From IMG/VR virus record IMGVR_UViG_3300020205_001013, positions 1-27,224 of that record: a stretch of 27,224 nucleotides of DNA, one strand, 5' to 3'. The position numbers and the translations under genes were made by a program. Below, one piece after another: positions 12,379 through 19,445 of this stretch (positions are counted from its first letter, which is position 1; each line of letters begins with the position of its first letter). The notes under the pieces are model-generated. The model saw nothing but the letters and a program-made list of their open reading frames with translations, ran no database searches and had not been told where the DNA came from. This DNA comes from a virus.

Positions 12379-12385
12379 TATTTAT
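12379..12385 (-). promoter_or_regulatory. T4-type late promoter for gp14 operon
   Basis: ATAAATA on the minus strand, preceded by CG and ending 4 nt before the gp14 ATG. The sequence between core and ATG (TCAT) contains no ribosome-binding site, so the mRNA is predicted to be leaderless. Confidence 0.75.
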
Positions 12386-12402
12386 CGTAAATAATATTAA
12401 CG

Positions 12403-12409
12403 ATAAATA
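12403..12409 (+). promoter_or_regulatory. T4-type late promoter for gp13
   Basis: ATAAATA preceded by CG. It ends 17 nt before the gp13 ATG at 12427. GGAG lies at 12415-12418, so the predicted mRNA has a short leader of about 12 nt that just includes the ribosome-binding site. Confidence 0.75.
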
Positions 12410-17755: not shown

Positions 17756-18379
17756 ATGGCAATCGCAAGTTTATCAAAATTTACCGTACCGCTAGCGTCA
17801 GATCAAAGTGCTAGCGCACAAGGTATGTTAATGCCAAAGTTAAAATATCGCTTTAGAGTGATGTTTGAAAACTTTGGTACTTCAACACCAACAACAGAAT
17901 TAACCAAGCAAGTTCAAGATGCGGCTAGACCACAAGTCACATTTGAAAATCAAAAGATTATGGTTTATAATTCTACAATTAACTATGCTGGTCGCCCTGC
18001 ATGGAATCAGATGTCAATCAAATTACGTGATGACGTAACTGGTGCAGTATCTAAGCTAGTTGGCGAACAAATGCAGAAACAGTTTGACTTTTTTGAACAA
18101 AGTAGCGCGGCCTCAGGCGGCGACTACAAGTTCTTAATGCGTATTGAAATGCTAGACGGTGGCAACGGCGCACAAACCGCAAACGTTCTTGAAACATGGG
18201 AATGTTATGGTTGCTACGTACAAGCCGCTCAGTATAACGCATTAGGTTATGGCGCACAAGATATGTTAACTATTGATTTAACAATCCAACCTGATAACTG
18301 TATCCAAACTAGTGGCGGCGCGGCAGCTCCAACTTCAAGACGTTTAGGAACAGCGGCAACTGCATCTGGTACACGTTAA
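17756..18379 (+). CDS. gp19: Tail tube protein
   Basis: The protein is 207 aa against about 163 for T4 gp19. The family pattern is KLKYRFRVMFENFG, then a tail-tube beta region with RPQVTFENQKIMVYNSTINYAGR and WNQMSIKLRDDVTGAV, and the closing strands ETWECYGCYVQAAQYN and DMLTIDLTIQPDNC. Hexameric rings of this protein form the inner tube that carries DNA through the contracting sheath. A low-complexity Ala/Thr/Ser tail (AAAPTSRRLGTAATASGTR) ends the protein and may be flexible. The start has GGAG upstream. The gene directly follows the sheath gene, as in T4, and an intrinsic terminator follows 6 nt after the stop, closing this transcription unit. Confidence 0.9.
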   Translation: MAIASLSKFTVPLASDQSASAQGMLMPKLKYRFRVMFENFGTSTPTTELTKQVQDAARPQVTFENQKIMVYNSTINYAGRPAWNQMSIKLRDDVTGAVSKLVGEQMQKQFDFFEQSSAASGGDYKFLMRIEMLDGGNGAQTANVLETWECYGCYVQAAQYNALGYGAQDMLTIDLTIQPDNCIQTSGGAAAPTSRRLGTAATASGTR

Positions 18380-18384
18380 TAATT

Positions 18385-18408
18385 AAGCTCACTCAGGTGA
18401 GCTTTTTT
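18385..18408 (+). terminator. Rho-independent terminator after tail tube gene
   Basis: AAGCTCAC, loop TCAG and GTGAGCTT, followed by a run of T (TTTTTT at 18403-18408). The stem is 8 bp. It separates the sheath/tube unit from the next gene, which has its own late promoter. Confidence 0.88.
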
Positions 18409-18418
18409 ATGATTACTC

Positions 18419-18448
18419 ATTAACTACGTAGTTAATTTTATCGATAAA
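18419..18448. repeat. Two abutting perfect palindromes at a late promoter
   Basis: ATTAACTACGTAGTTAAT (18419-18436, 18 bp) is directly followed by TTTATCGATAAA (18437-18448, 12 bp). Both are exact palindromes with no gap. The second overlaps the ATAAATA core at 18444-18450. Candidate protein-binding site or RNA hairpin. Confidence 0.75.
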
Positions 18449-18450
18449 TA
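18444..18450 (+). promoter_or_regulatory. T4-type late promoter
   Basis: ATAAATA preceded by CG. It ends 5 nt (TTGTT) before ATG 18456. With the terminator just upstream, no obvious read-through RNA would supply a leader, so a leaderless message is predicted. Confidence 0.75.
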
Positions 18451-18455
18451 TTGTT

Positions 18456-19445
18456 ATGGCCTTTACACCTAACTCATTTTTATATCGTCCTTCTAACATC
18501 ACGTTGCGTGATCCACAACATGCCGCACGAGTTTTTACTGACGATCAGTTTAGATTAGCACCAAAGCATAAGTTTTTATTTCACGTAGCGTTCAGTATAA
18601 ATTCGGCTGCATTATCAAATGCTAGTTTAATTGATCGATACCGGAATGAAATTAATGTACTAGTAAAAAGCGCAGACTTACCAAACTTTACGTTAAGTGC
18701 AGAAACGCTTAACCAGTACAATAGAAAAAAGAACATACAAACAACACACAAATATAACCCTATTAATATTACATTTCACGATGATAACATGGGATTAATT
18801 AACCAGTTATGGCAGAATTACTATAGTTATTACTATGCAGACAGCAATTCAGCATGGGATCCAGCGGCATACAAAAGAAGTGCTACTCGTAGTAGTGACT
18901 TTATAACTACACCTTATGGATTTGATAACGGTAGCACATTACCGTTTTTTAATTACATTAAAATTTATCAAATGGCTAGACACGAGTACATAGGGTATAC
19001 TTTATATAATCCTATAATTACTAGTTGGAACCATAACAAAGTAGATTATGCCGGACAAGGTACAATGGAAAATACTATGGGTATTCAGTTTGAAGCAGTT
19101 ACTTACGAAAACGGTGACGTATCAACCGGCGATCCAGAAGGCTTTGGCTTAGAGCATTATGATGTAGAAAAAAGTTCTCTACAAGGTAATACTGATTCTC
19201 AACCTAGTGGTCCGTCATTTACTGGTCCCAACTCAGACACACTAGATTTATCAATAGTTGATACTGTAACACAACAACTTAACTCGTACCAAAATACTGT
19301 AGAAAAAACAAATACTAATACAACAAATATTTTAAAAACATCTACATCATTAGCACAGTCTAGCGCACTTAGTGGAATAGCATTTCCAACAGCACCAGTT
19401 AACACTAATAGCACAGTTGCATCATTAATTAAGTTAGGAAAATAA
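18456..19445 (+). CDS. Tail-tube-fold protein, probable gp54-like baseplate tube initiator
   Basis: The protein is 329 aa (T4 gp54 is about 320). The N-terminal 230 residues show a tube-fold pattern also seen in gp19: KHKFLFHVAFSIN, then VLVKSADLPNFTLSAETLNQYNRKK, then YNPINITFHDDNMGLINQLWQNYYSYYY, and later YIGYTLYNPIITSWNHNKVDY with MGIQFEAVTYENGDV. The C-terminal 100 residues are Ser/Thr/Asn-rich and look flexible. In T4, gp54 and gp48 have this fold and nucleate tube growth on the baseplate. Length and order favour gp54, but gp48 or a second tube protein is possible. There is no visible ribosome-binding site, and the ATG lies 5 nt behind a late promoter. One nucleotide separates it from the next gene. 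Confidence 0.6.
   Translation: MAFTPNSFLYRPSNITLRDPQHAARVFTDDQFRLAPKHKFLFHVAFSINSAALSNASLIDRYRNEINVLVKSADLPNFTLSAETLNQYNRKKNIQTTHKYNPINITFHDDNMGLINQLWQNYYSYYYADSNSAWDPAAYKRSATRSSDFITTPYGFDNGSTLPFFNYIKIYQMARHEYIGYTLYNPIITSWNHNKVDYAGQGTMENTMGIQFEAVTYENGDVSTGDPEGFGLEHYDVEKSSLQGNTDSQPSGPSFTGPNSDTLDLSIVDTVTQQLNSYQNTVEKTNTNTTNILKTSTSLAQSSALSGIAFPTAPVNTNSTVASLIKLGK

Follow-up and report, generated by a model that had tools for sequence, protein, structure and literature searches.

The locus and its two palindromes

The window, that is the whole stretch of DNA analysed here, is an IMG/VR virus record of 27,224 bases that carries T4-type structural genes. Within it, a gene for a tail tube protein (17756..18379, plus strand; PHROG 4542, E 1.5e-52) is followed on the same strand by the stem-loop and T run of an intrinsic terminator (18385..18404) and then by a gene for a second tail-tube-like protein of 329 aa (18456..19445, plus strand; PHROG 4542, E 4e-14). 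Between the terminator and the second gene lie two perfect and abutting palindromes, one of 18 bp (ATTAACTACGTAGTTAAT, 18419-18436) and one of 12 bp (TTTATCGATAAA, 18437-18448), that overlap a T4-type late promoter, exactly as the preliminary description of this DNA had placed them. The core of this promoter, ATAAATA, is located at 18444..18450 on the plus strand and corresponds to -12 to -6 in the T4 convention as given in PMC2988020. The 18-bp palindrome (18419..18436, no strand assigned) is at about -37 to -20, and in relatives it takes the form of a quasi-palindromic, operator-like element. The first part of the 12-bp palindrome makes up a variable 7-bp spacer before the core (18437..18443, plus strand), and the ATG of the downstream gene would coincide with the predicted +1. 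Elsewhere in the window (12379-12409), two divergent ATAAATA cores stand back to back between divergent genes and have no such element.

Neither palindrome is rare by itself, since dinucleotide shuffles of the window often hold both kinds: a palindrome of at least 18 bp was present in 53 of 300 shuffles, and 12-bp palindromes numbered about 9 per shuffle on average. A palindrome of at least 12 bp within 2 bp of one of at least 18 bp was found in none of the 300. The expectation that such a site would have further copies did not hold within the window, where the 18-mer occurs once at up to three mismatches (one or more matches turned up in 5 of 100 shuffles), and held in relatives, where the element recurs at other loci.

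Conservation of the 18-bp element at the tail-tube locus

Relatives of this locus (site A) were gathered by both flanking proteins, using the best 80 rows for each, and 91 distinct intergenic regions were extracted, the window's own included. An NTAAATA core is found in 89 of them and is absent from the extracted stretch in two (L075 and L139). In 86 of the 89 the element starts 25 or 26 nt ahead of the late core (A/C)TAAATA, the full distribution being 26 nt (47), 25 (39), 24 (2) and 23 (1). Its consensus is ATWAWSTRC|GYASWTWAT, and the copy in the window is close to this consensus. In the 25- and 26-spaced sets the element holds 1.50 and 1.56 bits per base, compared with 0.81 and 0.35 in the spacer, while identity of the downstream protein drops to about 41% among these relatives. 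The stretch 5' of the element, which includes the tail of the terminator, is likewise conserved (1.53 and 1.45 bits), and a hairpin with a T run was seen by eye at the terminator position in nearly all relatives. Positions T2, T15 and A17 of the element are invariant over the 89 copies, and A4, T7 and C9 have one exception each. The preliminary description had made the standing of the palindrome depend on whether close relatives keep it; they keep the 18-bp element, with diverged flanks and at a fixed spacing.

Perfect symmetry is found in 11 of the 89 copies. It is conservation that proves the 18-bp element to be real, and exact symmetry is not the conserved property. The 12-bp palindrome is present in 6 of the 91 regions, and we rejected it as a second element; the functional part that the preliminary description had assigned to it is not supported. 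It arises from CGATAAATA plus chance.

A perfect palindrome, as seen in the window, could suggest that the inverted repeat works through folding of the strand, as an RNA hairpin or a cruciform. We consider this very improbable. Apart from the scarcity of perfect copies, 27 arm pairs from site A and from sites B and C described below were tested for covariation, and one gave p 0.018 and none other fell below 0.06. Because changes in one arm are not compensated in the other and the element precedes the predicted start, an RNA role at the site-A promoter is unlikely, and the absence of covariation argues for a protein site rather than an RNA stem. With 11 of 89 copies perfect, no covariation and a locked spacing to the core, the cruciform and methylation-site readings of the preliminary description are not supported, and its doubt about an RNA hairpin was well placed.

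Recurrence at the late sigma factor gene and at other late promoters

The element was also found upstream of the late sigma factor gene of relatives (site B). On one side of it is a virion structural gene, with a gp53-type baseplate gene next in line, and on the other side is the late sigma gene, with an SbcD-like gene beyond it. From 80 loci we obtained 69 distinct upstream regions after contig-edge and identical ones were dropped. In all 69 the opposite strand has a late core at a distance of 26 nt, so that the element forms the -30 element of a late promoter there, and on the strand of the sigma gene it supplies the 17-nt spacer of a sigma70-type promoter, TTGACT-N17-TATAAT, together with the TAT of its -10. 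The -35 hexamer reads TTGACT in 55 and TTGACA in 11 (66 of 69), and the -10 hexamer is TATAAT in 62 of 69. The sigma factor encoded by these relatives belongs to the gp55 family (PHROG 12791/234; PHROG 12791 at 5e-73); no such gene was seen in the window fragment. It has about 279 aa (L244-L323), of which only residues 145-238 match the solved T4 gp55 (185 aa), and it therefore has a large conserved extra N-terminal region. Its structure model was too poor for use (pLDDT 64.8).

At site C, between the genes for gp25 and a gp6-type baseplate wedge protein, the element scores at least 9 in 57 of 63 distinct regions, at spacings of 26 (53) and 25 (4); of the remaining six, five have a weak copy at this offset and L369 has no element. 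Site D precedes a gene for a 202-aa protein (PHROG 11259), and here the element scores at least 7 in 5 of 6 regions with the same spacing. Matrices trained at one site recognised the others: the site-A matrix found 66 of 69 and the site-C matrix 69 of 69 copies at site B, and at site A the site-C matrix scored at least 9 in 88 of 89 and the site-B matrix did so in 78 of 89.

The site-A matrix was then scanned over ten long relatives and the window at a score of at least 9. It gave 133 matches, 26 of which have NTAAATA at 23-27 nt, and all 26 are at 25 or 26; they include sites before other genes. ATAAATA at 18-22 or 28-40 was not seen for any of the 133, and none of 107 matches of a column-reversed control matrix has TAAATA. 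Recurrence at several loci with fixed spacing refutes the notion of a chance palindrome, which the 53 of 300 shuffles containing one of at least 18 bp might otherwise favour and to which we give a negligible probability.

How widely the element is used was surveyed in 166 late-type promoters of the same ten relatives and the window, which are called by motif only and come from relatives that are not independent, with a matrix trained on sites A, B and C together, offsets of 18-60 allowed and a score of at least 7; cross-training agrees. The element is present in 27 of the 166 (18 at 26, 8 at 25 and 1 at 40), and among the surveyed late-gene clusters its presence is all-or-nothing by gene family. 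It precedes the second tube-like gene in 11/11, the gp6 gene in 6/6, the site-B structural gene in 4/4 and the 202-aa gene in 5/6, and it was found at none of the other late-gene clusters, for example tail sheath (0/10), tail fibre-type (0/14) and single-strand-binding protein (0/5).

A separate feature of these promoters is the short distance of only 4-5 nt from ATAAATA to the ATG in 31 of the 166, as in the window at 18444-18458; the predicted start is therefore at or next to the start codon, as in a leaderless mRNA. This class accounts for 0 of 51 late-type promoters in Phosso, 0 of 57 in Atu_ph07 and 1 of 37 in PA5oct.

Distribution among viral contigs and named phages

A search of the 2.9 million contigs of IMG/VR for the exact element with TAAATA at a gap of 0-28 nt returned 67 cases, at spacings of 26 (37), 25 (27) and 30 (3). 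Among the 64 cases at 25 or 26, 63 precede the tube-like gene and the 64th is cut by the contig end. The exact site-B promoter was found 38 times, always with a late core opposite; 37 of these precede the late sigma gene and the 38th is a cut contig. The bare exact element occurs in at least 80 IMG/VR stretches. A motif of host genomes was considered and rejected: in the 10 bacterial or archaeal genome stretches with the exact element, none has TAAATA 18-49 nt downstream.

By tail tube protein, the nearest named phages are Sinorhizobium phage Phosso, Agrobacterium phage Atu_ph07 and the PA5oct group. In Atu_ph07 the late-sigma gene has site B with a spacing of 25, and a further copy precedes, by 34 nt, a core in front of a gene for a tail protein. 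Phosso has elements at spacings of 25, 32, 35 and 36, the one at 35 preceding the tail tube gene; the column-reversed matrix gave none in either phage. PA5oct is ambiguous, with TAAATA within 18-44 nt in 9 of 120 matrix matches versus 3 of 147 for the reversed matrix; the nine include a weak copy with a spacing of 25 ahead of a gp25-like gene. In the stricter promoter set (score at least 7) the element is present in 0 of 51 promoters in Phosso, 1 of 57 in Atu_ph07 and 2 of 37 in PA5oct, and a search with a strict pattern gave a single site in Phosso and no site in the other two or in RaK2. Spacing thus varies outside the main group, in Phosso, in Atu_ph07 and in the three contigs at 30, and this and the low counts in the stricter promoter set weigh against the explanation that we favour below.

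Two other arrangements were seen. In three places (G004:C1:65256, L599 and L600) the element is followed by a terminator hairpin and then by ATAAATA, with about 45 nt or more from the element start to the core. In four (L598, L603, L607 and L608) the element is directly 3' of a GATAAAT core, just before the AGGAGT...ATG of another gene.

Candidate regulators

Three families were considered as the regulator and rejected: HTH_3 (PF01381) is found in 0 of 16 records, HTH_39 (PF14090) in 5 of 17 and in neither Phosso nor Atu_ph07, and MazE/AbrB (PF04014) in 4 of 17, one of them over the cut-off. A Pfam scan covered 129 of the 164 selected conserved clusters, and the 25 families listed, out of 52, include no further candidate for DNA binding.

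The remaining candidate is a protein of about 94 aa that begins MSRPKP. It would bind the 18-bp repeat, activate the four late promoters and repress both the late-sigma promoter, from the site shared with the opposed late promoter, and its own, through an overlapping site, a proposal that we find rather doubtful. Of 74 relatives, 64 have an element-like sequence lying across the late core and the start of its gene (0 of 74 for the reversed matrix at that offset), and in 10 of 74 an additional copy with a score of at least 7 is found upstream of the core. A perfect element stands 30 nt before the core of this gene in three IMG/VR contigs. The protein was found in 15 of 50,697 records, namely in Phosso, Atu_ph07, the PA5oct group and Salicola phage SCTP-2. 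The gene copies of Phosso and Atu_ph07 are without a good element (scores of 3.9 and -4.0), and that of PA5oct has a weak one at a spacing of 29.

Upstream of the gene (L610-L689), TATGCGTA...TACGCATA may pair to form a hairpin in the leader, around the ribosome-binding site, and paired changes occur in it (TATACGTA...TACGTATA). This 5' UTR hairpin may partly explain the element-like sequence. For this reason, and because that sequence overlaps the late core, its link to a regulator is weak, and we treat the protein as a lead only. It has no Pfam or PHROG match. A structure model of good quality (pLDDT 88.1) was obtained, and Foldseek and VIA searches with it gave no match to a known DNA-binding fold: the best PDB match in Foldseek has E 1.4, VIA Z is at most 5.4, and the viral matches are unnamed phage proteins.

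Proposed mechanism

The sequence comparisons establish an inverted-repeat element, its 25/26-bp lock to the late core, its restriction to four late promoters and its placement in the late-sigma promoter. These features suggest a dedicated, putative control protein, and they fit the view in the preliminary description of an operator or DNA-binding-factor site, the element recurring in relatives at further late promoters and in the promoter of the late sigma gene. We put at about even the chance that the element binds a sequence-specific, probably dimeric regulator that aids a few late promoters and occludes the late-sigma promoter.

A dimer of this regulator would sit at -37/-38 to -20/-21 of the four late promoters, a place where no part of the late RNA polymerase of T4 reads sequence, and could help the late RNA polymerase to use a small set of tail and baseplate genes. 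That the spacing is locked points to contact with RNA polymerase and hence to activation; it is from this rigidity that we infer activation rather than repression. At the late-sigma locus, the same bound protein would fill the spacer that separates the two hexamers of the sigma70-type promoter and thereby silence this promoter, repression being suggested by the position of the site between -35 and -10. Late-gene output would in this way be linked to the supply of sigma by negative feedback.

A pure repressor operator, holding the late-sigma gene and a few late promoters off for reasons of timing or to keep low-copy baseplate parts scarce, is possible and on balance unlikely. It would account for the element inside the late-sigma promoter, for the element-like sequence over the start site of the ~94-aa gene in 64 of 74 relatives, and for the fact that the recognisable regulated genes encode baseplate and tube parts. 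Yet a repressor needs no lock at 25/26 bp, and the lock is present in 86 of 89, 69 of 69 and 57 of 63 copies at sites A, B and C.

More unlikely still is a MotA-like middle/late hybrid, in which an activator at -30 would let the host sigma70 polymerase use ATAAATA before the late sigma is made. The element is centred at about -29 and the MotA box at -30 (PMC2988021), and the presence of the element at the late-sigma gene would suit such a scheme. However, the core is the late motif and not TATAAT, and the long inverted repeat is unlike the TGCTTtA box of MotA, which acts as a monomer according to the account in PMC2988021.

Comparison with known systems

In promoters of the MerR type the operator lies within an overlong spacer of 19-20 bp, whereas the spacer at site B is 17 bp. 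In phage switches of the lambda type one operator serves two opposed promoters, and the late-sigma locus has the same arrangement; it differs in its strictly lytic-type context of virion and late-sigma genes, in having one operator and in having no known repressor fold.

Like the MotA box of T4, the element is a phage sequence centred near -30 that takes the place of a -35 element. It is distinguished from MotA middle promoters, as these are described in PMC2988021, by the lack of TGCTT, by the inverted repeat and, at sites A and C, by the late-type core ATAAATA. The DsbA sites of T4 are similar in that a phage DNA-binding protein binds at late promoters, the binder being putative in our case. 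According to PMC2988020, these A/T-rich sites overlap two late promoters, and DsbA binds with low affinity, has no effect in vitro and is non-essential. The GapR family to which DsbA belongs (PF10073) was detected in none of 17 records, although many of these are fragments.

For the related phage CBB, an ATAAATA late motif has been reported, and the excerpted text of that report (PMC5259590) mentions no upstream element. Our literature search, which covered titles and the beginnings of abstracts outside subscription journals and preprints, returned no description of the element.

The closest comparison is with the late promoters of T4, served by gp55, gp33 and gp45, which share with the promoters described here the ATAAATA core, a gp55-family sigma (encoded in relatives) and structural genes downstream. 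As summarised in PMC2988020, T4 late promoters have no conserved -35 region, gp33 reads no sequence, and late transcription uses a sliding clamp that binds no specific site. They are the textbook case of clamp-activated promoters lacking an upstream element. The other late-gene clusters in our survey conform to this pattern, with no conservation upstream of the core, and the four promoters with a gene-specific upstream element depart from it. Since T4 late promoters have no conserved -35 region, we regard these four as a new variant of the T4-type late promoter. With the element at some late promoters and inside the late-sigma promoter, this phage group could adjust a portion of its late programme and exert feedback on the supply of its late sigma factor. 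Among cultured relatives, recognisable copies are found in Atu_ph07 at the late-sigma site and in Phosso at other genes. On the boldest reading, in which the ~94-aa protein is the regulator, a clade of jumbo phages, giant relatives of T4, would have equipped T4-type late transcription with an additional, gene-specific layer of control.
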